In this document: positions 18,163 to 39,047 of the stretch, one piece after another
Position numbering within the stretch: the stretch's first letter is position 1
How the letters are laid out: the number at the start of each line of letters is the position of its first letter
From: Streptomyces pathocidini
Lineage (GTDB): Bacteria > Actinomycetota > Actinomycetes > Streptomycetales > Streptomycetaceae
Direction of reading: 5' to 3'
DNA: 40,227 nucleotides
Assembly (NCBI RefSeq): GCF_001418495.1
Contig: NZ_LIQY01000014.1
Span: 1-40,227, forward strand
Notes under the pieces: generated by a model
The model's input: the letters and a program-made list of their open reading frames with translations, nothing else
Told to the model about the DNA's origin: nothing
Databases searched by the model: none
Program-made: the position numbers and the translations under genes

Positions 18163-18194
18163 AGGTCCTCCTGGAACGTCTTTGGAGCCACAAC

Positions 18195-23483: not shown

Positions 23484-23811
23484 TTGGTGTGCTCGTCTCC
23501 CGCTCGGCTCGCCAACCCGACATCGCCGCTCGAAGCTCGTCCCGCTTGTTCTCGAGGAGGTAGTAAGCAGTCTGCGCCGGGGAAGGGTGCTCGAAGAGCA
23601 GGGTCACCGGTACCTCGCCGAGGTCCTGGTCCAGTCTCGCGACGATGTTCATGTTCTGGAGTGAACTCAGCCCCAGGACGTCCCATGAGTCCAGTTCCTC
23701 AAGTTCCGGGACGGGCACCTCGAGGATCTCGGCGAACACGCTCATCGTGTATCGGTGCGCCCATGCGTCGAGTTCCACGTCGGGCACATCGTCACGTTGC
23801 CGTCCTGTCAT
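23473..23811 (-). CDS. Acyl carrier protein (second)
   Basis: A 112-residue stand-alone carrier protein. The phosphopantetheine site reads LGLSSLQNM, with Ser50 as the probable attachment residue and Ser49 in place of the usual Asp. The C-terminal VTLLFEHPSPAQTAYYLLEN matches ACP helix III and IV. ATG 23811 is preceded by AGGAGG at four bases and shares one base with the upstream TGA (TGATG). It overlaps the ketosynthase start by 11 bases, suggesting that this ACP and the ketosynthase work together. The missing Asp may weaken recognition by standard phosphopantetheinyl transferases. Confidence 0.83.
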   Translation of the reverse strand: MTGRQRDDVPDVELDAWAHRYTMSVFAEILEVPVPELEELDSWDVLGLSSLQNMNIVARLDQDLGEVPVTLLFEHPSPAQTAYYLLENKRDELRAAMSGWRAERETSTPSGR

Positions 23812-24716
23812 CAGACCTCCTGTTTCATCGTCGGCAGCGAATAGGTGGTCTTCTGTCCCCCGTGCAGAACCAACGGGACGTCCTCGCCGTGGAGCCTCCA
23901 CGCGACACCGCCCAGCGTGCGGAAGGGCAGCCAGTCGGCAGCGTCGATGATCCCGCGACTCGCCAACATGGCGAGGAGAAGCGGATCGACCGGCAGCCAC
24001 TCACCATCGACCAACAGGTCTATCCACATGTGCGGGATCGAATACGGCACGGCCATGAATATCCCGAAGGACTTGCGCGCAGCGAAGCCGCGTCGACCGG
24101 CCTCCCGGAAAAGGAACTCTGCGGCAAGGGGACAGTCGGCGAGTCGCGCACTGCGCAGGAACCCGACGTCGTTCTGGAGCGCCGGCGGCAACAAATGGAA
24201 CTCGACCGAGGCCAGTTGGGCGGTGAGCGCACGCATTTCGTCGGGCAGCAGCACGCTGCCTCCGGCAGCCCGACGGTGCACCACACAGCCAGTGACCGCA
24301 TCGATCTCGCCGTCGGTCCCGAAGTGCCCGGCCACTTCGGGTGCGATGCTGAATTCGCAGGCCTTCTCGCAGCCGGGGTCGAGGCAGTGGGGCGCGAGGG
24401 TCAGTGTGTACAGGGCCGCCTGCTCCGAGCGCGCAGCACGCAGTGCAGTCGCCCACCCACGCAGTGCCATGGCTCTGGCGGACGGCAGCCCCAGCATGAA
24501 GGAGACGTTGGCGAGATCCAACCCGTCCATGGCGATGGTTCCGTTCGCGCGCCCGTGGGGCAGTCCCACGTCCAGGAGCTCCTTGAGGAGATCCTCCGGA
24601 ATTCCGTGCGTGCGCCGTGCGGTCGCGACGTCGTGCACGTACTCCCGGTGCTTCGACGGCACTCGCCGCACGCGCTCAACGGCGCTTTCGATCTCCGTCC
24701 GCTGCGGTGTCCTCAT
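23811..24716 (-). CDS. Transglutaminase-like acyltransferase
   Basis: A 301-residue protein with a C-terminal transglutaminase-like core. The probable triad is C195 (LADCPLAAEFLF), H229 (IPHMWIDLL) and D244 (WLPVDPLL). Transglutaminase-like enzymes in some biosynthetic clusters, such as AdmF of the andrimid pathway, form amides from carrier-bound thioesters, and that is the likely role beside two ACPs and a free condensation domain. The N-terminal half is unfamiliar; it holds HCLDPGCEKAC (H110, C111, C116, C120), a possible metal site. The start is ATG 24716, overlapping the P450 stop (ATGA); the open frame upstream has no support. A peptidase or another acyl transfer role remains possible. 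Confidence 0.65.
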   Translation of the reverse strand: MRTPQRTEIESAVERVRRVPSKHREYVHDVATARRTHGIPEDLLKELLDVGLPHGRANGTIAMDGLDLANVSFMLGLPSARAMALRGWATALRAARSEQAALYTLTLAPHCLDPGCEKACEFSIAPEVAGHFGTDGEIDAVTGCVVHRRAAGGSVLLPDEMRALTAQLASVEFHLLPPALQNDVGFLRSARLADCPLAAEFLFREAGRRGFAARKSFGIFMAVPYSIPHMWIDLLVDGEWLPVDPLLLAMLASRGIIDAADWLPFRTLGGVAWRLHGEDVPLVLHGGQKTTYSLPTMKQEV

Positions 24717-25930
24717 GCCTCGCTCATCCCTTCCCACGTGATGGGCAGGGATCGGAGACCGTAGACGAGCATGTCGTCGAGAAACTGGTGGGCATCGGGC
24801 GGCGCGGACAGGCACAGACCGGGAAGTCCGAGCAGTATTTCCACAACGGCGATCTCCACGAGATTCTCCGCGAGCGAGCTGCCCAGACAGCGGTGCACAC
24901 CGTGTCCGAAGGCGAGGTGGCCGCCCTGGGTTCGGGTCATGTCGAACGTGTCGGGGTCGGTGTAGACGGAGGCGTCCCGGTTGGCCGTCGGCAAGTGCAC
25001 GATGACCGCGTCTTCCCGACGAATTCGACACCCGGCGAGCTCGGTGTCCCGAGTGGCCACGCGTGCCACGCCGTGCTGGACGATCGTCCAGTAGCGCAGC
25101 GCTTCCCGTACGGCAGGCGCCGCCCAGGTGGCCGGATCGGCGACGGCACGTTCGCGTTGCCGCCGGTCCCGCAGCAGCGAGAGCATCGTCAGGGCGAAGA
25201 GCCCCGTGGTGGTCTCGAGACTCGCCATGATGATGACGTTGGCAAGGCCGGCGAGTTCCTCCGTGGAAAACCCGTCATCCACGCCGCGCGCCAGATGGGT
25301 CAGCAGGTCGTTTCCGGGATTCCGGCCCCTGGCCGCCAGTTGGTCCACCAGGTAGTGCTCCATCCGGCCGGCGGCCACCCGTCGAGTGACCGCCGTGGCG
25401 TCATGGCGTTGGAGGTCGGTCGCGCAGGTCTCGAAGAAACCGCGATCCTCCATGGGAACGCCCAGCATGGGTGCGAGTCCCGCCGAGGGCAGCGGCACGG
25501 CGAAGTCCGCCACCAGGTCGGGCGTCCCCGACTGTGCGAGCGCCTCGGCCAGCGTCCGCACAGAAGCCCTGAACCGCGGTCGCGACTCACGTACGCGTGC
25601 CGCACTGAACTGCGCGGCCACCAGTCGGCGCAACCGGGTGTGCTCGGGCGGGTCCATCGACAGCAGGTGCCCTGGTATCCGGTGTTTCACCGCCAACGGC
25701 AGCGAGGGGTAGCCGGGCAGGGTCGAGTCGGAACTGAACCGGGTGTCGGCGAGGACGAGTCGCGCCGTCGGATGGTCGGTCACCAGCCATGCGGTGCCGC
25801 CGTAGCGCAGGGATACGCGGCGTATCCCCGGACGCCCGTCGGACAGGTAGTCGCGCGGAGGGGCGTACGGGTCGGAGCGGACCGTCGGGAAGACGGTCGC
25901 GGCCTCCGCCGGGCTCGGTGTGCAGTTCAC
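24713..25930 (-). CDS. Cytochrome P450 (CYP105-like), cluster tailoring
   Basis: A 405-residue actinobacterial P450. The heme loop is FGHGVHRCLG with ligand Cys348, and the K-helix ExxR is EALR. The HLLSMDPPEHTRLRRLV segment is the usual C-helix region. The I-helix reads IMASLETTTG where most members have AGxET, so the conserved Gly is replaced by Ser. It probably hydroxylates the product of this operon, for example the aromatic ring or the side chain. The GTG start overlaps the exporter stop (GTGA). No redox partner is encoded nearby. Confidence 0.87.
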   Translation of the reverse strand: MNCTPSPAEAATVFPTVRSDPYAPPRDYLSDGRPGIRRVSLRYGGTAWLVTDHPTARLVLADTRFSSDSTLPGYPSLPLAVKHRIPGHLLSMDPPEHTRLRRLVAAQFSAARVRESRPRFRASVRTLAEALAQSGTPDLVADFAVPLPSAGLAPMLGVPMEDRGFFETCATDLQRHDATAVTRRVAAGRMEHYLVDQLAARGRNPGNDLLTHLARGVDDGFSTEELAGLANVIIMASLETTTGLFALTMLSLLRDRRQRERAVADPATWAAPAVREALRYWTIVQHGVARVATRDTELAGCRIRREDAVIVHLPTANRDASVYTDPDTFDMTRTQGGHLAFGHGVHRCLGSSLAENLVEIAVVEILLGLPGLCLSAPPDAHQFLDDMLVYGLRSLPITWEGMSEA

Positions 25931-27738
25931 CGGTACCCCGCCGCCTGAATGCCGTAGAGCTCCGCGTACTGGCCGCCGCGGGCGACGAGCTCCTCATGCG
26001 ATCCGTGCTCGACCAACCGCGCCCCGTCGAGCACCACGATGACGTCCGCCATCTGCACGGTGGAGAAACGGTGGGACACCAGGATGGTCACGCCCCCGAC
26101 GGTGGACGACGAGGAGGCACGGGCCGCCTCCGCATAGCGTTCGAACAGGGCGTGCTCGGTCTCCGCGTCCATCGCCGACGTGGGTTCGTCCAGCACCGTG
26201 AGAAGCGGTGACCGGCGCATGAACCCTCGGGCGAGGGCCACCCGCTGCCACTGCCCCTGGGACAACTCCACCCCTTCGGGCCACGTCGCCCCCAGCTGCG
26301 TGTCGATCCCCCGCGGGAGCACGGCCGTCACCTCGTCGGCGCCGGCGCGGGTGACCGCCTCGTCGACGGCACGGGGCAGTTCGGCGCGAGCGAGGTCGCC
26401 CAGTCCGACCGACGTTCTGAGCGGGTACTCGAACTTGACGAAGTCCTGGAAGGCCCCGGAAAGTCGACGCCGCCAACCAGGAGCCGGAATCCGGGAGAGA
26501 TCGGTGCCCTCGACAGTGATACGTCCCGAGGTCGGCCGGTACAGCTGGCACAACAGCTTGACGAGCGTCGACTTGCCGGCACCGTTCTCCCCCACGACGG
26601 CCACGACGGCCCCCGCGGGAATGGTGAACGACACGTCCTTCAGGACCGGCCGGTCGGTACCGGGATAGGTGAACGAGACGTTCTCGAAGCTGATGCCCGC
26701 GCGGAGACGCTCGGGCACCGGGGCGTCGGCCCGCTCCTCAACGGTGCGTGCGTAACCCTCCAGCCACGCCAGGCGGCGCGCACAGTCGAGCCAGATGGTC
26801 CGGAAGAAGTGCGTCTGGCTGACGCTCTGCCCCACGTACTGCGAGAGGCGGCTGCCCGCGGCGAGGACCAGCATGACCTGCCCGGCAGGTGAATCGCCTC
26901 GCTGCGCCACGAATCCGACCGCCACACAGAACGCGATACCGAAGAACGCGTAGCTGGCCGACTGCCATATCGCCGTCGCCCATCGCGCCCTGGCCATCGG
27001 CCGATAGCGCCGCTCCCATGCCGCACGCCGGTCCGCGCGGATCCGCTGCCGGACGCCCGCGACCCGGAGTTCCTTCCCCGCGGCCGGCGTACTGCCCACC
27101 ACGAAGAGGTGCCGGGCGAGCCGGTCGTGCTGGGCGCCGGCTTCCTCGGCCGACTTCTCGATCCCGGCCCGCCAGGTGGACACCAGCACGGTCGGGACGG
27201 CGCAGACGCCGAGCAGCCCGAGGGCCGGGTGGACGGACATCAACAGGGCCACGGTGAGGCCAAGCCGCAACACCGCCCCCGCCACCGCGAACAACTGCTG
27301 ATACAGCTCGCTCAACGCTGGAGCATGGTCCCGAAGAAGGGAAAGCCGGTCCACGAAGTCGGGGCGCTCATGGTGCTCGATCGTGACGACCTCGGACTGC
27401 AGTCGCGCCACATGGGATTCGACCACGATCCCGGCGCGGTCGGCGAAACGCCGGTTGACTCGTTCCGCCGCGGTGTTCAGCAGCCAACCGCACGCGGCGA
27501 GCAGCGAGAGGGCCAGTGCGGACATCAGTACCGCAGTGCCGTCCCCGCCGATGACGGAATCGGTGAAGGCGGCGAGTCCCAACGCAAAGAGAGCGTCGGG
27601 GACGGCAGCGGCAACACTCGTCGCGAACGCCACCACGATCAGCCACGGGTCGGCGCGATATCCCAGCCGCAGAGAACTGGCCAGGGAGCGGACCGCCGAG
27701 GGAAGCTGGTCGGTCGACCGGTCAGACGTGGCAGTCAT
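25927..27738 (-). CDS. ABC exporter half-transporter B
   Basis: A 603-residue type I ABC exporter with an N-terminal six-helix membrane domain and a C-terminal ATPase. Motifs are Walker A GENGAGKST (about residues 381-389), signature LSQGQ, Walker B LTVLDEPTSAMD and the switch His in LVSHRFST. The signature has Gln in place of the first Gly of LSGGQ. It overlaps the end of the preceding half-transporter by 17 bases, so the two most likely form a heterodimer that exports the cluster product and gives self-resistance. The start is ATG 27738, with GGAG six bases upstream. Confidence 0.88.
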   Translation of the reverse strand: MTATSDRSTDQLPSAVRSLASSLRLGYRADPWLIVVAFATSVAAAVPDALFALGLAAFTDSVIGGDGTAVLMSALALSLLAACGWLLNTAAERVNRRFADRAGIVVESHVARLQSEVVTIEHHERPDFVDRLSLLRDHAPALSELYQQLFAVAGAVLRLGLTVALLMSVHPALGLLGVCAVPTVLVSTWRAGIEKSAEEAGAQHDRLARHLFVVGSTPAAGKELRVAGVRQRIRADRRAAWERRYRPMARARWATAIWQSASYAFFGIAFCVAVGFVAQRGDSPAGQVMLVLAAGSRLSQYVGQSVSQTHFFRTIWLDCARRLAWLEGYARTVEERADAPVPERLRAGISFENVSFTYPGTDRPVLKDVSFTIPAGAVVAVVGENGAGKSTLVKLLCQLYRPTSGRITVEGTDLSRIPAPGWRRRLSGAFQDFVKFEYPLRTSVGLGDLARAELPRAVDEAVTRAGADEVTAVLPRGIDTQLGATWPEGVELSQGQWQRVALARGFMRRSPLLTVLDEPTSAMDAETEHALFERYAEAARASSSSTVGGVTILVSHRFSTVQMADVIVVLDGARLVEHGSHEELVARGGQYAELYGIQAAGYR

Positions 27739-29560
27739 GGTTCTCCTGCTCCTCTCGCTCCGCACTGCCCGCTTGCCCGCTGTCGAACCGGGACGCCTGA
27801 AGCTCGAACATCTCCCGGTATCGCCCACGCCGGGCCATGAGCTCCGTATGCGTGCCGGTTTCCACGACGCCGCCCTTCTCCAGAACGCAGATACGGTCCG
27901 CATGACGCACCGTCGAGAACCGGTGAGAGATGAGGATCGTCGTGCAGCCGCGGGTGGCCTCAAGAATCTGGTCGAAGATCTCCGCCTCGGCCCGTACATC
28001 GAGCTGGGCGGTGGGTTCGTCGAGGATGACCACTCCCGCGCCCAGCCGTACCGCGCACAGCACTCTGGCCAGTGCCACCCGCTGCCACTGACCGCCGGAA
28101 AGGTCCGTACCCCCGTCGTAGCCGCGCGCGAGCACCTGGTCCGGATCGGCGAGGTCCGAGGCGCGGGCGTCCTTGAGCGCGGCGTTGATCACCTCGTCCG
28201 GAGCGCCGAGCGGGGCGACGTTGTCACGCAGCGGCAGCTCGTAGCGTATGAAGTCCTGGAAGCTCGCCGCGATCTGCCGGCGCCAGGAGTCCAGGTCGAA
28301 GTCGCGCAGGTCGACGCCGTCCACCTCGATGGCCCCGCGGTCCGGGTCGTACAGCCGGCACAGCAGTTTCACCAGCGTGGTCTTGCCGGCGCCGTTCACG
28401 CCGACGATGGCCAGCGACGTCCCCGCCTCGACGCTGAGGTCCAGACCGTTGAGGATCGGGCGTTCATCGGTGGGATAGGAGAAGTGGACGTCCCGGAATC
28501 GCAGGGTGGATGACGGCCGCCCATCCGCCTGCTGCTCACCCGAGGGGAGCCGCCCCAGGGAATCCGTCTCCTTTCCCAACCGGATCACAGCCGACACGCT
28601 TTGGGCGGCCAGTGGCAGGGCCCAGTTCAGGCCTCCGAAGGCGAGTGCGGCCGTGCCCAGCGCGGCCTGCGCGTAGATGATCACCTCGCCGGCGTTGATC
28701 GCGCCGGCGGTGGCGTCGGCGGCCAACGACCAGAACAGCAGTCCGTTCGCCCCGACCAGGACCGCAACGGTCCACCGCATCGGCCGCTGTCGCAGCCGTG
28801 TCGCGTGCCAGCGCAGGTCCACGAGCCGGCGTCGGTTCGCGGCGAACCGGGCGACGGTCCACTCGCTCAGGCCGAAGAGCCGCAGTTCCTTGGCGGCGGA
28901 CGGCTCCACGGCGAGCCGGTAGGTGTATTCCGCGTGCCGTTGGGCGATCCCCACCTCGTCGGTGCCCCGGTCCCAGCCCGAGCTCTCTCGTAGCAGCCAG
29001 TGGGTCGCAGCCCACGCTCCACCGACCAGGGGTGCGGCCCACCAGTGGTACGCGCTGAGTACAGCGGCCTGGGTGAGCCCCGCGACGGCCTCGACGAGCC
29101 CCCCGGCGATCATCCCCATCGACAGGTTCATCGGCGGACCCGAGATCCCGAGATCGAAGTCGCGGGCCACCGTGAGGTCAGTGGTGATCTTCTCGGATTC
29201 CAGGTGTGCGGTTCCGTCGGGGCGCGTGGTCGCGTCCAGCAGACGATCGTGCAACCAGGAGGCGAGCCGATCCCCGAGGTTGCTGCCGACCTGCGCATGC
29301 AACGGCGCCAGCAACTGGATGAGTACGAAAAGTCCGCCCACCAACGCGAGCGACACCACTACGGACCCGCCGTGCTGTACCGCTGCCACGAACAGGCCGA
29401 CGGCTACCGTGAAGGCCGCCGGCAGTAGACCGCGGGCCAACACCAGGCTCCACCACGCGGCGGTCAACCCGCCGTGGGATCGCGGAAGCACCGCGAAAAA
29501 GGCCCATTCATCGCGATCGCGGAGCCTGCGCTTCACTGTGTTCACTGAATTCTTACCCAT
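27722..29560 (-). CDS. ABC exporter half-transporter A
   Basis: A 612-residue type I ABC exporter with the same layout as its downstream neighbour. The ATPase domain has Walker A GVNGAGKTT (about residues 384-392), signature LSGGQ, Walker B VVILDEPTAQLD and switch His in LISHRFST. Hydrophobic segments in the first 310 residues fit six membrane helices. The ATG at 29560 overlaps the end of the chorismate lyase-like gene. It is probably the partner of the second half-transporter in a heterodimeric efflux pump. Confidence 0.88.
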   Translation of the reverse strand: MGKNSVNTVKRRLRDRDEWAFFAVLPRSHGGLTAAWWSLVLARGLLPAAFTVAVGLFVAAVQHGGSVVVSLALVGGLFVLIQLLAPLHAQVGSNLGDRLASWLHDRLLDATTRPDGTAHLESEKITTDLTVARDFDLGISGPPMNLSMGMIAGGLVEAVAGLTQAAVLSAYHWWAAPLVGGAWAATHWLLRESSGWDRGTDEVGIAQRHAEYTYRLAVEPSAAKELRLFGLSEWTVARFAANRRRLVDLRWHATRLRQRPMRWTVAVLVGANGLLFWSLAADATAGAINAGEVIIYAQAALGTAALAFGGLNWALPLAAQSVSAVIRLGKETDSLGRLPSGEQQADGRPSSTLRFRDVHFSYPTDERPILNGLDLSVEAGTSLAIVGVNGAGKTTLVKLLCRLYDPDRGAIEVDGVDLRDFDLDSWRRQIAASFQDFIRYELPLRDNVAPLGAPDEVINAALKDARASDLADPDQVLARGYDGGTDLSGGQWQRVALARVLCAVRLGAGVVILDEPTAQLDVRAEAEIFDQILEATRGCTTILISHRFSTVRHADRICVLEKGGVVETGTHTELMARRGRYREMFELQASRFDSGQAGSAEREEQENHDCHV

Positions 29561-30098
29561 TCATCTCAAAGCATGCGGCCGAGAAGGACTCGTCGATGAG
29601 CAGTGCGGGGATGCCTCCCACGATGATTCGGTAGCGACGACTCGCTCTGACCGCCCCCTCCGGCTCATCGGGTACGGCCCAACGCACGTGCTCTCGCCGG
29701 GACTCGACGCGGTGCAGACGCATCAGACGCCCGATCGGCTCACGCGTGTGCAGCAGATCCCTGCCGAGTGCGGACGGCAGGACGTCCACCGCCACGACCG
29801 AACTCGCGCGCACGTACAGAGCTCCCGTTTCGGCTCCCACCAGATCGGTGGTGCGGCGGATCAACGTACAGTCCGCGGGGGAACCCAAGGCGACCGCGTC
29901 CGCCGAGTGCGCCGGCATCTCCGAGTGGCTCAACCCGGAGGTCGTCAGGCGCTCGCCGGTCAGGTACTCCAACATCGGCGTGACCGTGCCGTCCGAGATC
30001 ATCAACAGGCCACCGGCCCTGCCGAGGCGGCCGAGCGTCGCGGCGGGCGGCGACAGGCCGGCCTGCCCCGCAGGATCCACGGAGACGTCCGCCGTCAC
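29553..30098 (-). CDS. Chorismate lyase-like protein (DUF98/Rv2949c type)
   Basis: A 181-residue protein of the size and pattern of the DUF98 chorismate-pyruvate lyase family, whose member Rv2949c makes 4-hydroxybenzoate from chorismate. The recognisable blocks are SDGTVTPMLEYLTGERL (residues 35-51) and LLHTREPIGRLMRL (115-128), with Arg-rich residues after it. It lies directly downstream of an AMP-dependent ligase, with GTG overlapping the ligase stop (GTGA), which fits synthesis and activation of 4-hydroxybenzoate as a starter. The family also contains non-lyase members, so the reaction is probable rather than certain. Confidence 0.72.
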   Translation of the reverse strand: MTADVSVDPAGQAGLSPPAATLGRLGRAGGLLMISDGTVTPMLEYLTGERLTTSGLSHSEMPAHSADAVALGSPADCTLIRRTTDLVGAETGALYVRASSVVAVDVLPSALGRDLLHTREPIGRLMRLHRVESRREHVRWAVPDEPEGAVRASRRYRIIVGGIPALLIDESFSAACFEMNG

Positions 30099-31546
30099 CG
30101 CTTCTCCCCCGCAGTCCCGCCCGGGATGTCCCTGACCAGCTTCCCCGTGGCCGACCGGGGTAGCGCCGTCACCACCTCGATGCGCCGCGGTACCTGGTGC
30201 GGGGCCAGTCGGTCACGGCACCACCGGTGCAACACCTCCGTGCTGACGACGGCGCACAGCACCACCCGGGCCACGGGAACCTGCCCCCGCGCGCTGTCCG
30301 GCGCCGCCAGCACCTGCGCCTCGGCCACGGCGGGATGACCGCTCAGGGCGTCTTCCACCTCCTGGGGGCTGACCTTCTTGCCGGCGACGTTGATCATGAG
30401 GCCCATGCGGCCGCGGAGTCTGATCTCGCCACTCGCGGCGTCGACCGTCGCGAGGTCACCGGTCCGGTGCCAGCCGCCGTCGTCGCCCAACGCGACGAGC
30501 TCCGTGGCGTCCATCACCCAGGCGGCCAGGGAGTCGGTGCGCAGAAGCAGCTCCCCCACCGCCTCGCCGACCGAAGACGCCTCGTGCACGGCCACGGTCC
30601 GCGCCTCCACCCCGGGAAGGGGGACGCCCACCTGCCCGGGCTCCTCGGTGCCCCGCACGGGCATGAGTGTCACGGCTCCCGCCTCCGAGGACCCGTAGCA
30701 GTTGTAGAGCGTGAACGGGAAGCGGCCGGCGATCCGTTCCGCCACTCCGTCGGCCAGCGGAGCGCCGGCCGACACCGCGTTGCACAGGTCCGCCAGGCCC
30801 GCGTCCGGCATCCCGTCCGGCGCGATCGCCCCCTGCGCAAGCAGACCGTAGTGCGCCGGAAGTGCGACCAACGTCCGTGCGTCATGTTCACGTACGGCGC
30901 GAGCGAGCTGGGACGGGACGGCGCGCGGCGAGCAGAACCGGGCAGGCGCGCCGAGCAACAGCGGCGCCATGACACCGTAGTTGAACCCGTAGTTGTGAAA
31001 CTGCGGAGCGGCCACGACCACCGGGGAGTCCGGTGCGTAGCCGAGGACCCGGGCGACACGTCGGGCATCGGTGAGCACGGCGTCAGCCGTCCTGACCACG
31101 CCCACCGGGCTGCCGGTGGAACCCGAGGTGAGGAAGATCTGCGCGCCGGCAGGCAGCCCGGCCGGCAGCCCGGAGTCGCCCGTGACGCTCGTCCACAGCC
31201 GCAGCTCCCGCGTTCCGAACCAGCCGGGCTCCCTCCCCTCCTCCGCCGGAGGCCTGCGGTCCTGAACGGTGCAGCCGGGAGCAGCCGGCAGGGACGGATC
31301 CCGGTGGACGACCGGCACACCGGCCAGGTCGCATCCGAGGGCCACCGCCGCAGCAGCCACCGGGTCGGTGATCTGCGCGGACACCCCGTAACGAGCCGGG
31401 TAGCTCTGCTGCAACCGGGTGGCGACCTCCTCAGCCGCTTCCAGGAGCCGCCGGAGCGTCCAACGGCGACCGTTGGCGATCAGGGCAGTTCCCTCTTCCG
31501 GCCCGGGGCCGTCCTTGACCGCCTCGAACAGGCCGATACCGCTCAT
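30095..31546 (-). CDS. AMP-dependent carboxylic acid ligase (aryl-CoA or aryl-ACP ligase)
   Basis: A 483-residue ANL-family adenylating enzyme. Motifs are A3 TSGSTGSPVG (residues 140-149), A5 YGSSEAG, A7 HRTGDLA, A8 GRMGLMINVAGKKVSPQEVE and A10 LPRSATGK with catalytic Lys469. It activates a carboxylic acid as an acyl-adenylate and passes it to CoA or a carrier protein. The next gene is chorismate lyase-like, and two stand-alone ACPs lie downstream, so 4-hydroxybenzoate is the favoured substrate (inference). The start is ATG 31546; it overlaps the HAD gene end by four bases. Confidence 0.87.
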   Translation of the reverse strand: MSGIGLFEAVKDGPGPEEGTALIANGRRWTLRRLLEAAEEVATRLQQSYPARYGVSAQITDPVAAAAVALGCDLAGVPVVHRDPSLPAAPGCTVQDRRPPAEEGREPGWFGTRELRLWTSVTGDSGLPAGLPAGAQIFLTSGSTGSPVGVVRTADAVLTDARRVARVLGYAPDSPVVVAAPQFHNYGFNYGVMAPLLLGAPARFCSPRAVPSQLARAVREHDARTLVALPAHYGLLAQGAIAPDGMPDAGLADLCNAVSAGAPLADGVAERIAGRFPFTLYNCYGSSEAGAVTLMPVRGTEEPGQVGVPLPGVEARTVAVHEASSVGEAVGELLLRTDSLAAWVMDATELVALGDDGGWHRTGDLATVDAASGEIRLRGRMGLMINVAGKKVSPQEVEDALSGHPAVAEAQVLAAPDSARGQVPVARVVLCAVVSTEVLHRWCRDRLAPHQVPRRIEVVTALPRSATGKLVRDIPGGTAGEKR

Positions 31547-32196
31547 CGTCCGGCGTCCCTTCCGAGTTCCTTCAACAGACAGCCGAGGTCGGGGATCCGT
31601 GTCGCGGACGCCCACGGCCCGCCTGCCGAAGGGGACCTGTCCAGAAGCAGCGTCCGGACTCGGGCGGCTTCTCCCTGCTCACGATCCGCAGGGCTGTCTC
31701 CGACGTACACGGCTTCTTCCGGCCTCAGCCCCAGGCGCCGCAGCGCGAGGCGCAGTCCGTCGGGCGCGGGTTTGGGCAGCGGTGCGTCCTCGCGGGCGAC
31801 CGTCAAACGCACATCCAGCTCACACGCGTCGAGCAGCGCCTGCGCATCCGCACGGGACCGGCCGGTGCACACCCCGACCGCCGCACCGCGGTCGCGCAGG
31901 GCGGCCAGAACCTCGGGAGCGTGCGGCACGACGGGCGCCGGCGCGGGGTGCTCGCGCAACGCCCTGTCCAGCTCTTCTCGGTACGCCCGCAGGGCGGGCT
32001 CGACCCGGTGCTCACCGACCAGCGCGATCAGGGTTCCGACGTCTGTCGGACGCTGGGCGACCGACAGCCGGGCGGCACTCGCCCCGCCCGCGCCCACCGC
32101 CTGCACCGCGCTTCGCAGGCAGCACAGATGCAGCTGCCAGCTGTCGACGAGTGTCCCGTCCAAGTCGAAGACCACTCCACGTGACCCGGCCGTCAT
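31543..32196 (-). CDS. HAD-superfamily phosphatase
   Basis: A 217-residue haloacid dehalogenase-type hydrolase. Motif I DLDGTLVDS gives nucleophile D11 and acid/base D13, motif II is CTGRS, and motifs III and IV are KPAPDG and VGDSPADREQG. It is closest in look to phosphoglycolate phosphatase-type enzymes. The ATG overlaps the stop of the CobT-like gene (ATGA). That pairing suggests it removes the 5'-phosphate after phosphoribosyl transfer, as in other two-step ribosylations (for example BtrL/BtrP in butirosin). The substrate is inferred, not shown. Confidence 0.85.
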   Translation of the reverse strand: MTAGSRGVVFDLDGTLVDSWQLHLCCLRSAVQAVGAGGASAARLSVAQRPTDVGTLIALVGEHRVEPALRAYREELDRALREHPAPAPVVPHAPEVLAALRDRGAAVGVCTGRSRADAQALLDACELDVRLTVAREDAPLPKPAPDGLRLALRRLGLRPEEAVYVGDSPADREQGEAARVRTLLLDRSPSAGGPWASATRIPDLGCLLKELGRDAGR

Positions 32197-33281
32197 GGCG
32201 CGACCGGACTTCGCGGGGAGGACAGTCCGACGGACCGCGCGGAGGGGGTGAGCGCGGCGGCGGCGAGGGCTGCGTTGACCAGTCCCAGAGCGAGCGCGGC
32301 TCCCGATCCCATGCCGAGGTGCATGTCGAGACTGAGCAGCGGGGGCTCGTCGAGCGCCGCCAGGAGCACGCGGTGTCCCGGCTCGGACGAGCGGTGCGCT
32401 GCCACCAGGTAACCGCGCGCGGCGGGGCACAACCGGACCGCCACCAGTGCGGCGACCGCGGTGATGAAGCCATCGAGGACGACGACCTTGCGTCGCTTGG
32501 CGGCGGCCAGGATGACCCCGACGTTGCCTGCTATCTCGAACCCGCCAAGGGCCGCGAGAAGCCGGACCGGGTCATCGGGCACGGCTCGCACCCGCGTCAA
32601 CGCGTCCCGCACGATGTGCCGCTTGCGTTCGACCGTGGCGGCGTCGACCCCGGATCCCGAGCCGACGAGGTCGGACGGGTCCAGGCCGAGCAGACGGGAG
32701 GCGAGAGCAGCAGTCGGGGTGGTGTTCCCCACGCCGATCTCGCCTACTGCGACGAGAGGTTCGTCTGCGAGGCACTCCCCCACGTATGAACAACCGTTGA
32801 GGATCGCCTGCCTGGCCTGATCGGGCGTCATGGCGTCCTGCAGGCAGATGTCCGCGGTTCCCGACGCGATCCTGAACCGCTGGTCACCGACCGAGGACAG
32901 CAGTCCGAAGTCCGCGTACGAGACCCTGGCCGGAACTCGCTCCGCCAGGAAGTTCACCGGGGCACGGCCCGCGGCGACGAGCGTGAGGACCCGTGCGGTC
33001 ACCTCGGGGTGGAACAACGAGGTGCCACGGGCCGCCACTCCGTGGTCCGCGGCGAGGACACTCACGACCGCGGGCAGCGGGCCCGGTGCGGGGTCGCGCC
33101 GAATCGCCGCGATTCGATGCACCAACGCGTCGAGCGTCCCCAGGCTTCCCGCGGGACGAGCCAGGGTGCGCTGGCGCACCCTGGACAGCCGCCCGTGGAC
33201 CGGGTCCGGGGGATCGATCGCGGAACACAGGGCGGCGAGCCGGTCCTCGAGGTCGCCGATGGCGTCGGGACGCTCACCCAT
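32193..33281 (-). CDS. CobT-like nicotinate-nucleotide phosphoribosyltransferase
   Basis: A 362-residue homologue of CobT, which transfers phosphoribose from nicotinate mononucleotide to dimethylbenzimidazole in cobalamin synthesis. Recognised blocks: ADHGVA (79-83), GEIGVGNTTPTAAL (180 on, E181), GSGSGVD, LGGFEIAGNVG, VLDGFITAVAALVA, AHRSSEPGH and LDMHLGMGSGAALAL. The last block normally reads LGEGTGAA; the catalytic base Glu (Glu317 in Salmonella CobT) is Met324 here. The E181-to-M324 distance of 143 equals Glu174-to-Glu317, so the alignment is firm. No cobalamin genes are near; neighbours are a HAD phosphatase, glycosyltransferase and aryl-acid genes, which points to a secondary-metabolite substrate, perhaps a phenol. 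ATG 33281 overlaps the glycosyltransferase end. Confidence 0.83.
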   Translation of the reverse strand: MGERPDAIGDLEDRLAALCSAIDPPDPVHGRLSRVRQRTLARPAGSLGTLDALVHRIAAIRRDPAPGPLPAVVSVLAADHGVAARGTSLFHPEVTARVLTLVAAGRAPVNFLAERVPARVSYADFGLLSSVGDQRFRIASGTADICLQDAMTPDQARQAILNGCSYVGECLADEPLVAVGEIGVGNTTPTAALASRLLGLDPSDLVGSGSGVDAATVERKRHIVRDALTRVRAVPDDPVRLLAALGGFEIAGNVGVILAAAKRRKVVVLDGFITAVAALVAVRLCPAARGYLVAAHRSSEPGHRVLLAALDEPPLLSLDMHLGMGSGAALALGLVNAALAAAALTPSARSVGLSSPRSPVAP

Positions 33282-34569
33282 GCCGGACCGCCAGCAGCTC
33301 ACGGCCCAGAGCGGAGATGCCTCGCGCAAAGCGATCGTTCGTGAAGTGCCCCATGATCCGGTCACGGGCCGCTGCTCCACGGGTCATCGCCGCGTCGGGT
33401 CGGCTCAGCGCCTCACGCAGGGCATGCGCAAGGTCGAGGGGCTCCAGTACGCGACTGCCCGAAGGGCCCTTCACCGCAACCGGGAAACCGTACTCGCTGC
33501 CGGGCATGAGCTCGCGCAACGAGTCGACGGCCGTGGCGACCACCGGGCGGCCGAAGGCCATCATCTCCGCGCACACGTAACAGAACGACTCCCACAGACT
33601 CGGCACGACGGCGACATCCGCCACCGACATCCAGCCGAGGGCCTCGCGGCGTGGCACGTCACCGAGGAAGGAAACCCGATCCGTCAGTCCGAGCTGCGCG
33701 CACAGTTTCCGAAGGTGCGGTTCCTCGGGCCCGACCCCGACGAGCCCCAGACGGGGAACCACCGCGGGCGCTCCGGGCCGTTCCACCGACCCGAGCAGCG
33801 CAAGTGCCGAGAGCAGCTGCGCGAACCCCTTGACGGGCACGACTCGCCCGCAGGCGATCAGCAGCGGCGGCCGCTGCGCCCCAGGGGCACCGGGCACGAG
33901 TGTGTCCAGCCTCGTAAGGCGCCCGGTGTCCGCCTCGACGGCGGCGATCTCGTCCGGGTCCACGCCCAGGTGCACCACGCTGTGGGGGGCGATGTCACCC
34001 GGGTAGTAGCCAGTGATGGCGTCGGAGAGCGCCTGGCTGATGAAGACGGTGTGGTCGCTGCCCCGGACCGCTTTCTCCTCGAGCGCCAACAGGTGTGCCC
34101 GCTCGGCCGAGACACCGCTCGTCACGCGGTGTGTGTCCCGGTCGTACGGGGTGATCGCCCGGAAGTCCTGGAGCAGGATGTTCACCAGCGGTGCGGAGTA
34201 CGTGCGGGCGAACATGGTCGCCTCGGGATGGCAGAACAAGTCCGGCAGGGCGACCACGTCCGGTGCGCCGATCTCGGCAGCGAGGCGCTCGGCCGCCGCG
34301 TGGAGTCGCCGGTGTGTGCGCAGGCTCTGGTCGGCGAGGCCGGTGCCGGAGTTGTAGACGAGCCCGGCTCCGGTGCGGAGCACCTCGATCCCGTCGACGC
34401 GCTCGCGCACATCGCCGTCGCCGTCCACACGGGTGGTGACAACGCCGACGTCCCAGCCCTCGGCCGCCAACCCGACAGCAAGGTTCCGCGCGACCGTGCT
34501 GGTGCCGCCCACCGTGGTCGGCGGGTACTCACGGGAGAAGATGAAGATGCGTGGGGAGTCGATCACCAC
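33274..34569 (-). CDS. GT4-family glycosyltransferase (GT-B fold)
   Basis: A 431-residue retaining GT-B glycosyltransferase of the GT4 type. The N-terminus IFSREYPPTTVGGTSTVARNLA is the acceptor-domain start of GT4 enzymes. ACGRVVPVKGF begins the donor domain, and the E-x7-E motif is ESFCYVCAE. It would transfer a sugar from a nucleotide donor, plausibly the CDP-linked deoxysugar made by the two preceding genes. The frame opens with GTG-GTG at 34569/34566, overlapping the dehydratase stop; either may be used. Acceptor and donor cannot be read from sequence. Confidence 0.87.
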   Translation of the reverse strand: MVIDSPRIFIFSREYPPTTVGGTSTVARNLAVGLAAEGWDVGVVTTRVDGDGDVRERVDGIEVLRTGAGLVYNSGTGLADQSLRTHRRLHAAAERLAAEIGAPDVVALPDLFCHPEATMFARTYSAPLVNILLQDFRAITPYDRDTHRVTSGVSAERAHLLALEEKAVRGSDHTVFISQALSDAITGYYPGDIAPHSVVHLGVDPDEIAAVEADTGRLTRLDTLVPGAPGAQRPPLLIACGRVVPVKGFAQLLSALALLGSVERPGAPAVVPRLGLVGVGPEEPHLRKLCAQLGLTDRVSFLGDVPRREALGWMSVADVAVVPSLWESFCYVCAEMMAFGRPVVATAVDSLRELMPGSEYGFPVAVKGPSGSRVLEPLDLAHALREALSRPDAAMTRGAAARDRIMGHFTNDRFARGISALGRELLAVRHG

Positions 34570-35666
34570 TGCCAGCCTTCCGCCTGCGTGTCGAGAAAAG
34601 CATCGATCTGCCGTGTGGTGGTCTCGTCGGGCCGGGCTCCGTCGTCCACGGAGCGATGCCAGTCGACGATCGCCGCTGCGGACGCGTCGAGGGTGAACCT
34701 GTGACGCCAGCCGAGCTCCTCGGCGGCCCTGCGCCCGTCCAGTCGGAGCAGCTCCTCCTCCGCGAAGAGTGGCTCCGACTCCTCGACGACCGCGGCCGCG
34801 GACGTCGGCGCGCCCGCTTCCTGCGTTTTCGACCAGTGCGCGGCCAGGGAATGCGCCAGCTCACGGGCGGTCGCCCCGTCTCCGGGCGGCGCGAAGTTGT
34901 AGACGGTTCCCGGCTTGACCACCTCGTCGGCCAGGTGGTCGGCCAGCAGGAGGAGGCCGTGGACCACGTCCAACACGTGCTGCCAGGGCCGCACCGCCGT
35001 CGGCCGGCGAAGCCGGATCGGCTGCCCGGCCCTCAGCGCGGCCATCGCGTCCGGAACCAGCCGCCGGTCGGCGAAGTCACCGCCCCCGATGACATTGCCG
35101 AAGCGCACGGACGCCGTTCGAGGACACAGGTCGCCGAACAACTCCGCGTACCCTTCGAAGACCACTTCCGCGGCGGCCTTGGAGACACTGTAGGGGCACC
35201 CTCCGCCGAGGTCGTCCGTCTCCCGGTAGGGCCATGGCCAGGCACGGTTGCGGTAGCACTTGTCCGATGTGACGTGGACCAGCACCGTCGGCTCGCAGCG
35301 TCGCGCGGCTTCGAGGACGTTGATCGAGCCGTCGATGTTCGTGCTCAGGGTTTCCCGGGGATCGTCCAGCCCGGCGCGCACCAGGGGCTGGGCTGCCAGG
35401 TGGAAGACCGCGTCATAGGGGACGGCCGTCATCGCGCGGTGTACGGCGTCGAAATCCCGCACGTCACCGACCGCCCCACGGACACCGCGATCGGCCAACC
35501 AGGCATGCCGCACCTGTGTCTGCCGGTCCCCGTTCAGGGCGAAACCGTGCACCTCGGCGCCGAGTTTCCGGAGGGTGAGAGCCAGCCACGAGCCGATGAA
35601 ACCGCTGTGTCCCGTCATCAGGACCCGCCGGCCCCGCCATCTTGAGGTCAGACCGGCGTCAACCAC
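34563..35666 (-). CDS. CDP-glucose 4,6-dehydratase (RfbG-like)
   Basis: A 367-residue extended SDR. The cofactor motif TGHSGFIG is near the start, then FHLAAQPLVR, the TSDKCYRNR block that is diagnostic of CDP-glucose 4,6-dehydratases, PYSVSKAAAE with the catalytic YxxxK, and NVIGGGDFADRRLVPD plus RPWQHVLD. It converts CDP-glucose to CDP-4-keto-6-deoxyglucose, entry to CDP-linked 6-deoxy and 3,6-dideoxysugars. I chose GTG 35666, with GGAGG seven bases upstream inside the cytidylyltransferase gene; ATG 35618 in the Rossmann motif is too late. It follows its expected partner enzyme. Confidence 0.9.
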   Translation of the reverse strand: MVDAGLTSRWRGRRVLMTGHSGFIGSWLALTLRKLGAEVHGFALNGDRQTQVRHAWLADRGVRGAVGDVRDFDAVHRAMTAVPYDAVFHLAAQPLVRAGLDDPRETLSTNIDGSINVLEAARRCEPTVLVHVTSDKCYRNRAWPWPYRETDDLGGGCPYSVSKAAAEVVFEGYAELFGDLCPRTASVRFGNVIGGGDFADRRLVPDAMAALRAGQPIRLRRPTAVRPWQHVLDVVHGLLLLADHLADEVVKPGTVYNFAPPGDGATARELAHSLAAHWSKTQEAGAPTSAAAVVEESEPLFAEEELLRLDGRRAAEELGWRHRFTLDASAAAIVDWHRSVDDGARPDETTTRQIDAFLDTQAEGWQW

Positions 35667-36424
35667 GGGCACCCCTCCCGGGCGATCAGCGCTTCCGCGT
35701 CGATGAAGTCCTTGTAGGTGTCGAACGGCAACCAGAGTCCGTCGTGGGCGACGGCGTGCACCGCTGCCCGGTCGACCAGGCGGGGCAGTACGTGGCCCTC
35801 GAGTTCCTGATCCGCGTCCAGAAAGCGGAACAGCTCCGGCGAGCACATGAAGTACCCGGCGGAGATCAGCTCCGGCCGGGCGGGCTTCTCCGCGAACCCG
35901 GTCACCAACGCGCCCTGGCCGACGGTCAGTTCCCCGTAGCGGGACCGGACTCGTGTGGTGGTCACGGTCACCACACCGCCCGCGGCCTCGTGCAGGGCGA
36001 CCAGCGCACCGAGATCGAAATCGGACAGGACGTCCGCGTACCCGAGAAGAAATCCCCGGTCGCCGACGTGTTCCTGGGCCTCCAGCAGCCGGACACACTT
36101 CTCCGCCTGCGGTCCGCTGTCGACCAGAGTGAAACACGCGTCACCAGCGGTGAACCGATGCCAGCCCGCGCCGGCTTCGACCCCTTCGGGGCGCACTGCG
36201 TACTCTTCGAGCAGCGTCTTCTCGATACCGTCGGCCCCGTATCCGACACACAGCACGAACTCGGTCACTCCGAAGGCTCGGTAGTAGTCGAGAACATGCA
36301 GCAGGAGGGCGCGGCCGTCGGGCAGTGGGCGAAGCGGCTTCGGCAGGTCGTCGCCGTCCGTGCGCTGGCGCAGCCCGAGTCCACCGCAGAGCAGCACCAC
36401 CGGAGGCCACGTTCGCCGTCCCAC
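35648..36424 (-). CDS. Sugar-1-phosphate cytidylyltransferase (RfbF-like)
   Basis: A 258-residue nucleotidyltransferase, the length of glucose-1-phosphate cytidylyltransferase. It has the N-terminal LLCGGLGLRQR...LPKPL signature, LCVGYGADGIEK, a YADVLSD metal-binding region and PFDTYKDFIDAE near the end. The signature is unusual: most members read GGxGTR, here GGLGLR. Directly upstream of CDP-glucose 4,6-dehydratase, it most likely makes CDP-glucose. The start is GTG 36424, five bases after the carbamoyltransferase stop, with GAAGG ten bases upstream. Confidence 0.82.
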   Translation of the reverse strand: MGRRTWPPVVLLCGGLGLRQRTDGDDLPKPLRPLPDGRALLLHVLDYYRAFGVTEFVLCVGYGADGIEKTLLEEYAVRPEGVEAGAGWHRFTAGDACFTLVDSGPQAEKCVRLLEAQEHVGDRGFLLGYADVLSDFDLGALVALHEAAGGVVTVTTTRVRSRYGELTVGQGALVTGFAEKPARPELISAGYFMCSPELFRFLDADQELEGHVLPRLVDRAAVHAVAHDGLWLPFDTYKDFIDAEALIAREGCPWLTPV

Positions 36425-36429
36425 GCCTC

Positions 36430-38079
36430 TCACGCCTTCGGTCCCTTCCGCAGCACCACGTCGCCCAGCACCAGCAGGTCGAGCTCGGTCTTGAGGAAGC
36501 AGCGCACGGCGTCCTGCGGGGTCTCCACGATCGGCTCTTCGTTGTCGTTGAACGACGTGTTGAGCAGGACCGGAACGCCCGTGATCCGGTCGAAGGCGCG
36601 AAGCAACTCGCACAGACCGGGATTGAGCTCGGGCAGCGCGGTCTGCATGCGCGCCGAGCCGTCGACGTGGGTGACGGCCGGTATGACGTCCCGCCGGTCC
36701 TCGCGCACGTCGGGAACCATCAGCATGTACGGAGTCGGGACAGCCGTGGTGAAGAACTCCTCCTGCCGCTCGTGGAGCACCACGGGAGCGAAGGGCCGGA
36801 ACGCCTCCCGGTGCTTCACCTTGGCGTTGATGCGGTCCTTCATTTCGGCGGCACGCGGATCGGCGAGGATGCTTCGGTTCCCCAGCGCCCGCGGCCCGAT
36901 CTCCGAACGGCCCTGGAACCACCCGACGATCGCGCCGGACGCCAGCTCCTTCGCAACATGCCCGTGGAGATCATCCGGGCGCACCGTCTGCAGCCGGTCC
37001 TGTTCCGCCTCTATTGCGGCATCGATTTCGGCGGCACCGTACGTCCGTCCCAGATAGGGGGAGAACGGCTCCGGTGCGGGCTTCCACGAGTTGCCCGCCA
37101 GCCCGTAGTAGCCGTGCAGCGCAGCGCCGAGGGCCGTGCCCTGGTCTCCCGCCGCGGGCACGACATGAATGCGCTCGAACGGCGTCTGCTCCAACAACTT
37201 GTAGTTGGCGACGCTGTTCAGGGCGACTCCACCGGCGAGGCAGAGGTCCCGGGCGCCCGTCTTCTCGTGGAGCCAGCGGACGAGCGCGATCACGATGCGC
37301 TCGGTGTGCTCCTGCACGGCATAGGCGAAATCGGCGCGTACCTCGTCGCGGGCCGCTGGTGTGCCGGCCCGGGCGAGCTCTCGTTCGATCAGCGTTCGCA
37401 GAGCGATCTGCTGTGACGTCGACTGACGGAACTCGCCGTCGCGAAGGACGTAGAACTCTCCGAGTGCCTGGACGTACCTGGGCGTGCCGTACGGTGCCAG
37501 GCCCATCGTCTTTCCCGGCGCGCCCATGCCGCCGGAGGTCAAGAACCCGATCGCCTTCGACACGGCCTCGTACATCCACCCGACGGAGTCCTCGTACGGG
37601 TCCTCCGAGCGCCGGTCGGTGAGGGTGACCCGGCCGTGCAGGCCACGCACGACCTGCAACCCGTCGGGCCCTGCCGTGTAGAAGGAGATGGTCTCGCCGT
37701 AGAGCTCACCGTTCCGGGCGACGGTCGAACCACGGCCGTCCATGACGAGCACCGCGGCCCGCTCGAAGGGCGAGGTGTAGAAGGTGCTCGCCGCGTGGGA
37801 CAGGTGATGCCCTATCCAGTCGACGCGGTCGCGGAACCTCAGCGTGAACACCGGATTCACGAAGTCGTTCGCGACGACGAGGTCCACATCATCGATGCCG
37901 ACACCCGCCTCGGAAAGAACGTAGTCGGCAGAGAGGCACCGTTGCAGGCGCGGCCCGAGGCCGAACGCGATCTTCTTTCGAGTGAGTCTCTCTTCTTCGA
38001 TCGCCGAGACCACTCGGCCGTCCTCGATGAGACATGCACAGAAGTCGTGATGGGAACCGCCGAGACCAAGTATGCGCAC
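36430..38079 (-). CDS. O-carbamoyltransferase (NodU/CmcH family)
   Basis: A 549-residue carbamoyltransferase of the NodU/CmcH/TobZ type. It has the family start VRILGLGGSHHDF, the metal-binding HHLSHAAS (residues 91-98), GGVALNSVAN, GWFQGRSEIGPRALGNRSIL, REAFRPFAPVVL, THVDGSARMQT and PVLLNTSFNDNEEPIV. These enzymes use carbamoyl phosphate and ATP to carbamoylate a hydroxyl, usually on a sugar. GTG 38079 fits the family N-terminus and has AAAGGA eight bases upstream. GTG 38115, overlapping the LLM stop, would add 12 residues. The target is probably the deoxysugar or another hydroxyl of the product. Confidence 0.92.
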   Translation of the reverse strand: MRILGLGGSHHDFCACLIEDGRVVSAIEEERLTRKKIAFGLGPRLQRCLSADYVLSEAGVGIDDVDLVVANDFVNPVFTLRFRDRVDWIGHHLSHAASTFYTSPFERAAVLVMDGRGSTVARNGELYGETISFYTAGPDGLQVVRGLHGRVTLTDRRSEDPYEDSVGWMYEAVSKAIGFLTSGGMGAPGKTMGLAPYGTPRYVQALGEFYVLRDGEFRQSTSQQIALRTLIERELARAGTPAARDEVRADFAYAVQEHTERIVIALVRWLHEKTGARDLCLAGGVALNSVANYKLLEQTPFERIHVVPAAGDQGTALGAALHGYYGLAGNSWKPAPEPFSPYLGRTYGAAEIDAAIEAEQDRLQTVRPDDLHGHVAKELASGAIVGWFQGRSEIGPRALGNRSILADPRAAEMKDRINAKVKHREAFRPFAPVVLHERQEEFFTTAVPTPYMLMVPDVREDRRDVIPAVTHVDGSARMQTALPELNPGLCELLRAFDRITGVPVLLNTSFNDNEEPIVETPQDAVRCFLKTELDLLVLGDVVLRKGPKA

Positions 38080-38111
38080 TACAGCCGTCCTTTGCTCGTC
38101 ATCCGATTCAG

Positions 38112-39047
38112 TCACTTGCCGGCCATACGCGCGACGATCGGGGCGAAGCTCTCCAGCTGAGCGGCGGGGACGACCCAGTAGCTGATCCCGTAGCGTTCTC
38201 GTCGCACGTGCAGCCGCTCGCATATCTCGTCCGCGTTTCCCACCAGCGCCAGCGGTGAGTCGAGCGCCTCCTCTGCGGGCAGCCCGAACATGCGGGACAG
38301 GACCCTGTCGGCGTAGCGTGCGCTGTCAGGGACGACCGCTGCAGCGAACAGCAGGGTCTGCAACTCGATGTCGTGGATCCGTGCGCCGGCGGCCTCGCGC
38401 ACCCACCGGACACGTTCGTCGAACCGCTCTGCGGTCGCGGACGCGCCGAAGGAGTTGTCCTTCCTCCCGGAGGAGAGCCGAGCACTGAGCGAGACGATGT
38501 CCGCGTGCCGGACCGCGGTGCGCAGCATCTGCGGGCCTCCGCCGCCCATCGCCCATCTGACGGGGTTGGGTCGCGGCTCGCCCACGGCGCCGGCGGCCGA
38601 GAAGTAGTCGCCGTCGTGCGTCGCCGTTCCCTCGTCCCAGAGGCGACGGATGATCGACACGGCCTCGTCCAGGCGCCGAATCCTCGCCCCGGCCGGTTCG
38701 AACGGCAGGCCGGCTCGCGTGGCGTCGGTGGCCAGCCAGCCCGCGCCGAGGCCGATCTCCAGCCGCCCCGGTGCAGCCAGCTCCAGGGTCGCCAACTCCT
38801 TGTAGAGTACCGCGGGTTGACGGAGGTTGGCGGCCAGCATCAGAGTGCCGAGTGCTATACGGGAGGTGTGCTCGGCCGCAAGGGCGAGCGAGACCAGCGG
38901 CCCCCACTCCTGTCCCATGTGGTCGGGCACGAGGAGTGCGGAGTAGCCCAGTTCCTCGGTGCGACGGGCCTGCTCACGCCAGGTCGCCGCGTCCTTGGCG
39001 CCTCCGGCGAGCACCCCGAAGCGAAAGGGGTGCCGTGTGGTGTTCAC
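38112..39047 (-). CDS. LLM-class (F420-type) oxidoreductase
   Basis: A 311-residue luciferase-like TIM-barrel protein. The segments FRFGVLAGG, YSALLVPDHMG, LGTLMLAANLRQPAVLYKELATLE and GRLEIGLGAGW follow the F420-dependent LLM subfamily (TIGR03621 type). It could reduce or oxidise a pathway intermediate with F420 or FMN; the cofactor cannot be settled by eye. GTG 39047 has GGAG seven bases upstream and overlaps the amidohydrolase TGA (GTGA). It is distinct from the MupA-type protein later in the operon. Confidence 0.82.
   Translation of the reverse strand: MNTTRHPFRFGVLAGGAKDAATWREQARRTEELGYSALLVPDHMGQEWGPLVSLALAAEHTSRIALGTLMLAANLRQPAVLYKELATLELAAPGRLEIGLGAGWLATDATRAGLPFEPAGARIRRLDEAVSIIRRLWDEGTATHDGDYFSAAGAVGEPRPNPVRWAMGGGGPQMLRTAVRHADIVSLSARLSSGRKDNSFGASATAERFDERVRWVREAAGARIHDIELQTLLFAAAVVPDSARYADRVLSRMFGLPAEEALDSPLALVGNADEICERLHVRRERYGISYWVVPAAQLESFAPIVARMAGK

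Follow-up and report, generated by a model that had tools for sequence, protein, structure and literature searches.

Why would a cobT gene lie amid natural product genes, joined to a gene for a phosphatase? The question is raised by a 40,227-nucleotide stretch of Streptomyces pathocidini DNA (RefSeq assembly GCF_001418495.1, contig NZ_LIQY01000014.1), here called the window, which is an entire contig of a draft genome (5.54 Mb in 743 contigs, stated to be 98% complete; the genomes of the host's genus used in the comparison are of 4.8-11.8 Mb). On its minus strand a gene encoding a CobT-like protein of 362 residues (32193-33281), a putative nicotinate mononucleotide (NaMN):acceptor phosphoribosyltransferase, is followed by a gene encoding a HAD-IA phosphatase of 217 residues (31543-32196). 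An earlier note, made from the sequence alone, had proposed that the pair attaches phosphoribose to a phenolic intermediate and then dephosphorylates it. From the present analysis it appears that a copy of a B12 enzyme has taken on a new role in which, with a phosphatase as its partner, it ribosylates an aromatic building block of an actinomycete natural product. We consider it very probable that CobT and the HAD protein form a ribosylation module of some kind in natural product synthesis. The specific version, in which CobT carries out NaMN-dependent phosphoribosylation of a 4-hydroxybenzoate-derived phenolic acceptor and the HAD protein then removes the phosphate to give an aryl ribofuranoside, is one toward which we lean, although only just.

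The window protein is a full-length member of the CobT family, matching PF02277 with 325.8 bits (cut-off 22.6) over profile positions 1-318 of 329. The equivalog model for dimethylbenzimidazole phosphoribosyltransferase, TIGR03160, gave 315.2 bits, narrowly under its cut-off of 319.3, and the broader NCBI subfamily model NF000996 was passed with 323 bits against 306. Hence routine annotation would likely read cobT and hide such genes. An AlphaFold2 model (predicted local distance difference test score, pLDDT, 82.8, with five rows in the input alignment) had bacterial CobT and ArsAB as its best PDB matches (Z 39-42), which, as far as a model can, confirms the CobT fold and nothing beyond it.

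The stop codon of cobT and the start codon of the HAD gene share the tetranucleotide ATGA, a 4-nt overlap, and thus the coupling of a CobT homologue to a HAD phosphatase (HAD_2, 88.5 bits; PF13419/PF00702) was as the earlier note had described it. The defining motifs of HAD subclass IA are DxDGT, S/T, K and GD..D, and the sequences DLDGT, CTGRSR, PKP and GD(x3)D, which correspond to motifs I-IV of the subclass, are invariant across the window protein and its five orthologues described below. By profile, AlnB was the second of 14 solved relatives of the window HAD protein in the PDB (E 1e-12 or better). AlnB removes the phosphate from the ribose-5-phosphate that AlnA placed on alnumycin (PMC5321127), and a HAD domain dephosphorylates the monophosphate in minimycin synthesis (PMC8724604). 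AlnA/AlnB provide a natural product precedent for attaching ribose-phosphate and then removing the phosphate with a HAD enzyme, and a phosphoribosyl-delivering transferase whose gene overlaps so exactly with that of a HAD protein is the anatomy expected of a ribosylation module. The enzyme logic of the CobT-HAD pair is well supported.

The pair recurs in other genomes. A scan of genome contigs gave 18 loci, of which four were close (53-63% identity): those of Kitasatospora sp. A2-31, Nocardiopsis coralli, Actinoplanes sp. NBRC 103695 and Streptomyces fildesensis. When a profile was built from these four CobT proteins and that of the window, one further species, G599, was matched at E 1e-90 or better; it is an apparent Nocardiopsis congeneric with N. 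coralli (G1128). The subfamily is rare and patchy, the genomes with a CobT match, seeds included, being 2/394 in the class, 1/298 in the Actinoplanes order and 2/345 in the order of G599. The six orthologous loci span three families, and in all six the cobT-HAD overlap is exactly 4 nt. An AMP-forming ligase gene adjoins the pair in every locus (divergently oriented in S. fildesensis) and a GT4 glycosyltransferase gene adjoins cobT in five; within the DNA examined, a DUF98 gene is present in five of the six loci and genes for a carbamoyltransferase and a transglutaminase-like protein in four each. Hence the association of CobT-HAD with DUF98 and ligase genes, for which the earlier note had advised a search, was found, the sixth DUF98 gene being uncertain. 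Across the loci, the ligase, DUF98 and GT4 genes are more constant than those of the CDP-sugar and carbamoyl proteins. Hidden Markov models (HMMs) of the HAD, ligase and DUF98 proteins (E 1e-5) found none in 50 other PF02277 loci within the flanks examined (at most 1.5 kb for 36 loci and between 0 and 10 kb for the other 14); as the models were built with the positives, only these negatives are informative. In a plasmid collection the window CobT had 129 matches, all below 60% identity, and those among the 15 listed were mostly annotated as cobT.

The six orthologous CobT proteins form one clade (support 100/99), and ordinary actinobacterial CobT proteins make up its sister clade, the pairing being supported at 98/92, in a tree from which 27 of 62 rows had been dropped (5 duplicate loci, 2 fragments, L051/L052, and 20 close streptomycete rows, L011-L030). 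The clade is set apart in its active site. Met324 of the window protein sits at the position of SeCobT Glu317 (SeCobT numbering is used from here on), and Met is found there in all six members, whereas among 51 other PF02277 rows, most of them taken as best matches of the window protein and not sampled at random (they fall into 26 groups at 90% identity; the fragment L053 was left out), the residue is Glu in 50, ArsA included, and Gln in one (L058). Among the tabulated catalytic and base-contact positions 317 alone separates the clade; further clade-specific residues include Arg42, Asn253 and Cys285. Glu174 is kept in all six, as are the motifs DHG and GNTT. According to a CobT study (PMC9561151), Glu174 contacts the ribose 2'-hydroxyl and Glu317 is the proposed general base for benzimidazole, which must shed a proton having a pKa of about 11.5.

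With that proposed base missing from all six proteins, CobT might have lost its transferase activity and now be a scaffold, a regulator or a hydrolase of NaMN, in which case the HAD protein would have a different substrate, for instance a sugar phosphate from the deoxysugar branch; S. fildesensis has deoxysugar genes of its own nearby. We regard this as quite unlikely given the retention of Glu174 and both motifs in the six proteins and of the fold in the window model. Moreover, archaeal MjCobT, which has Val at 317 and uses Asp52 instead, is active with another base, as stated in that study (PMC9561151), and PDB entry 4kqi is by its title SeCobT E317A "complexed with its reaction products", which suggests that loss of Glu317 need not kill the enzyme. 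The exact coupling to the HAD gene also persists in all six loci, even where the flanks examined hold no CDP-sugar homologues (L038 and L039). The authors of the E317A structure reportedly questioned the need for a general base. Para-acyl phenols have a pKa of about 8, and hence a 4-hydroxybenzoyl thioester should need no strong base. Such an acceptor, either the thioester or a ketide derived from it, would be largely phenolate at cell pH. We propose that Glu317 became dispensable and was replaced by Met in the clade because the acceptor is a para-acyl phenol that is already acidic; a Glu buried next to a phenolate might even be unhelpful, which could explain why the Met is clade-wide.

In two genomes of the host's genus (G206 and G285) there is a third CobT, which is stand-alone and has Glu317 (L003 and L004). 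These were considered as clade members and rejected owing to their Glu317 and the near absence of common neighbours, the lone one being a 29%-identical carbon-nitrogen hydrolase match in L032.

Which acceptor, then, would the CobT-HAD pair serve? Directly downstream of the HAD gene lies the AMP-forming acid ligase gene (30095-31546, minus strand; PF00501/PF13193; the frame opens at 31615 and has an ATG at 31546), the start of which overlaps the HAD stop in the same ATGA manner as in the cobT/HAD junction. It is followed by the DUF98 gene (29553-30098, minus strand), which encodes an Rv2949c-like chorismate pyruvate-lyase homologue (PF01947, 27.8 bits against a cut-off of 22, tested for the window protein only). 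The DUF98 profile (A2) matched PDB 2nwi with an E value of 1e-16, an entry deposited as a hypothetical protein that we take to be a DUF98 protein. A PDB search with the ligase at 1e-60, too strict a threshold, gave no match. Upstream, the GT4 glycosyltransferase gene (33274-34569, minus strand; Pfam GT4 domains) ends within cobT, its stop overlapping the cobT start by 8 bases. The GT4, acid ligase and chorismate lyase-like neighbours named in the earlier note were therefore real by Pfam assignment (GT4, PF00501 and PF01947), and the order was refined, the ligase gene being downstream of the HAD gene and GT4 the immediate, overlapping upstream neighbour of cobT.

In the pathway that we favor, the DUF98 protein would supply 4-hydroxybenzoate by making it from chorismate, and the ligase would activate this acid for use by the carrier proteins and ketosynthase. 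CobT would move the 5-phosphoribosyl group of NaMN, the donor expected from its family, to an aromatic acceptor with release of nicotinate, the acceptor atom most likely being the phenolic oxygen of the 4-hydroxybenzoate-derived aromatic. The HAD protein would strip the 5'-phosphate to give the aryl ribofuranoside, which by CobT chemistry should be the alpha anomer, and the GT4, CDP-sugar and carbamoyl gene products may decorate the ribofuranoside later. What the sequences themselves show are the enzyme families, the coupling and its conservation, the replacement of Glu by Met and a separate Glu317 CobT in the five other hosts; NaMN as donor, the acceptor, the anomer, the timing and these later steps are what we infer.

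Several observations weigh against this pathway. No sequence feature identifies the acceptor. CobT positions 80 and 88 tune the choice of base according to an earlier study (PMC4657239), and an S80Y/Q88M/L175M variant was, by the titles of PDB entries 4kqj and 4kqk, solved with p-cresol. At positions 80/88/175 the window protein has F/V/I, the S. fildesensis protein H/L/I, and ArsA Y80/M88/M175 together with E317. We rejected F80/V88/I175 as proof of phenol use, as the same set is present in ordinary CobT proteins of the sister clade (L040, L044, L045, L047 and L048) and the pocket residues do not discriminate, and the phenol-using ArsA keeps the Glu317 that the clade lost. A chorismate lyase at the S. 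fildesensis locus was not confirmed (a leave-one-out HMM gave no match and hhalign a probability of 90%). AlnB is but one of 14 HAD matches of mixed function, glycosylation of the phenol could be the work of the GT4 protein, and the cobT-HAD locus encodes the sole PF02277 match in the host's own draft assembly. Thus the earlier proposal is supported in part: the comparison speaks for recruitment of CobT to secondary metabolism with a dedicated phosphatase (conservation in six genomes, which belong to three families, a separate Glu317 CobT in 5/5 other hosts, the ligase in 6/6 loci and DUF98 in 5/6), whereas neither the pocket residues nor ArsA lends support to its phenolic acceptor.

The same phosphoribosylation and dephosphorylation could instead be directed to a group of another kind: an amine, an amide, a hydroxyl of a sugar, or a ring atom, either nitrogen or, to give a C-riboside, carbon. 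This is a real, if less probable, possibility, given that the sequence does not fix the acceptor, that the clusters hold many building steps (ketosynthase, transglutaminase-like, condensation and, in L036, aminotransferase) and that one of six loci lacks a confirmed DUF98 gene. It accords less well with the constancy of the ligase, DUF98 and GT4 neighbours (6, 5 and 5 of six loci) relative to the more variable CDP-sugar and carbamoyl genes.

Could the window gene simply be the host's cobamide enzyme, forming alpha-ribazole phosphate or the nucleotide of a phenolyl cobamide, that had been displaced into another cluster? The CobT protein was matched by 388 of 391 genomes of the host's order, the host included, and the host assembly has CobN and CobU. 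The earlier note had taken the lack of a separate cobT in the host's cobalamin locus as refuting its proposal, and within the draft assembly neither another PF02277 protein nor CobS was found. The conclusion that the host lacks cobT and that the window gene is hence the host cobT was downgraded given the presence of CobN and CobU and a contig break beside CobU. The CobU frame is 450 bases from the end of its contig, C516 (6,000 of its 14,821 bases were examined), and in the relative G001 a second CobT-like gene and cobS lie on the side that matches that contig end; hence a second CobT-like gene and CobS may have been lost in the assembly gap. However, the usual fused CobT lies far from CobU in genus mates (at 1.85 Mb versus 2.57 Mb for CobU in G001). 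The break thus accounts for only part of the absence, and the missing fused Glu317 CobT is unexplained. The cobamide role is nevertheless very unlikely in our view, since the clade lost Glu317, the window protein falls short of TIGR03160 and each of the five other hosts keeps a separate Glu317 CobT. Rfam searches of the window and the four close loci (L036-L039) gave no match, and hence none to a cobalamin riboswitch. Other cobalamin-pathway Pfam families were also absent from the window open reading frames scanned (two ABC-type frames lay outside the scan), as the earlier note had stated for the neighbourhood. Judged from sequence, the context argues against a dimethylbenzimidazole or B12 role.

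A second, shorter CobT-like protein is encoded in G394 (L058) and in G001 (L086, 4380-5318), in the latter between cobU and cobS. At the position of Glu317, Gln is found in L058 and Glu (VGEGA) in its 77%-identical homologue in L086; both genomes also carry the fused Glu317 CobT.

Compared with known systems, the chemistry proposed for the CobT-HAD pair is a new combination of known parts. BtrL/BtrP of butirosin/ribostamycin assembly also perform phosphoribosyl transfer followed by dephosphorylation, but with phosphoribosyl pyrophosphate (PRPP) as donor, an aminocyclitol hydroxyl as acceptor and an unrelated transferase. Hygromycin A has a 4-hydroxybenzoate starter and a phenol-linked furanose, and shares with the mycobacterial Rv2949c-FadD22-polyketide synthase (PKS) system the logic of chorismate lyase, aryl ligase and ketosynthase leading to a glycosylated phenol; in both, the sugars come from nucleotide sugars via glycosyltransferases and not from CobT/HAD. 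With CobT/CobU (EC 2.4.2.21) the window protein shares the full-length fold (Z about 41 and 34% identity to SeCobT), Glu174 and the expected alpha-ribotide chemistry, but it differs in its Met at 317, its biosynthetic cluster, its HAD coupling and its TIGR03160 score, which falls under the cut-off. The NaMN:phenol/p-cresol phosphoribosyltransferase of Sporomusa ovata, ArsAB, is of the same family and likewise has a hydrophobic base pocket, and a phenolic acceptor is what we propose for the window enzyme; ArsAB consists of two homologous subunits that serve cobamides, whereas the window CobT is a single gene. A PF02277 search of the window genome and the five other hosts found no ArsAB-type tandem copy, only one such gene per place. 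We know of no HAD gene coupled to arsAB. AlnA/AlnB and MinB/MinC (minimycin) also put ribose-phosphate on a natural product and dephosphorylate it by a HAD protein (PMC5321127, PMC8724604), but there C-glycosynthases form a C-C bond, whereas the window family implies an NaMN donor and a heteroatom bond. No AlnA-type transferase family was found among the window frames scanned against Pfam, a scan that covered part of them.

The earlier note knew of no natural product pathway that uses CobT in this manner, and our literature search, which left subscription literature largely outside, likewise found, judging by the titles listed, no published example of CobT in natural product ribosylation; the literature also gave no lead to the identity of the cluster product. 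It is about an even chance that the pair represents a new class of natural product ribosyltransferase, of CobT lineage with a coupled HAD protein and NaMN as donor, that leads to aryl ribofuranosides of an unrecognised actinomycete compound family and possibly acts base-free on an acyl-phenolate acceptor. If so, NaMN would join nucleotide sugars, PRPP and ribose-5-phosphate as glycosyl donors in natural product biosynthesis, and the Met-for-Glu signature with a coupled HAD gene would be a genome-mining handle for aryl ribosides. The clade is also relevant to the question of whether a general base is required for CobT catalysis, being a natural group that has dispensed with the usual one.

The CobT-HAD operon is part of a PKS/non-ribosomal peptide synthetase-type cluster, all on the minus strand and in the order GT4, CobT, HAD, ligase, DUF98, ABC exporters, P450, transglutaminase-like protein and PKS/non-ribosomal peptide synthetase-type genes. 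Upstream of cobT, beyond GT4, are genes for a CDP-glucose 4,6-dehydratase (34563-36137; TIGR02622, 321.8 bits, cut-off 278.45; domain from residue 167, about 35640), a glucose-1-phosphate cytidylyltransferase-like protein (35648-36922; PF00483; TIGR02623 129.2 bits, below the cut-off of 300.25; domain from residue 175, about 36400), an O-carbamoyltransferase (36430-38223; PF16861, PF02543), an F420-type LLM oxidoreductase (38112-39194; TIGR03621, 279.1 bits, cut-off 213.15) and a carbon-nitrogen hydrolase (39044-39934; PF00795). Downstream of DUF98 lie genes for two ABC exporter-type proteins (25927-29560), recognised by eye from ABC motifs in the translations and having homologues in L036 and L075, and a cytochrome P450 (24713-25930; PF00067), with homologues in L036, L038 and L075. 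These are followed by the transglutaminase-like gene (23811-24716), a carrier protein-ketosynthase-carrier protein gene (21410-24000; PF00550, PF00109/PF02801, PF00550) and a condensation-domain gene (20037-21413; PF00668).

The transglutaminase-like protein had no Pfam match. Its putative Cys-His-Asp triad (C195, H229, D244) is invariant in four aligned sequences, and with its model (pLDDT 68) Foldseek returned transglutaminases best (E 5e-4) and, more weakly, arylamine N-acyltransferases and an amide synthase. The family may be amide-forming enzymes that act between carrier-bound units. Copies are found in L036 (Kitasatospora, two: 13785-14735 and 17468-18400), L038 (19750-20652) and L075 (12858-13841). 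The L036 cluster includes an aminotransferase.

Elsewhere in the window, positions 1-11173 (plus strand) hold BREX/Pgl defence genes, which open at the contig start with a PglX cut down to its C-terminal part and continue with BrxC/PglY, PglZ, BrxD and BrxHI. On the minus strand a 570-residue ATPase-like open reading frame (11207-12919) matched the PADLOC candidate PDC-S27 (E 5e-14), its Pfam ATPase matches being below cut-off. A terpene synthase gene and an overlapping cytochrome P450 gene (13115-15927, plus strand) are perhaps a separate small terpenoid locus.

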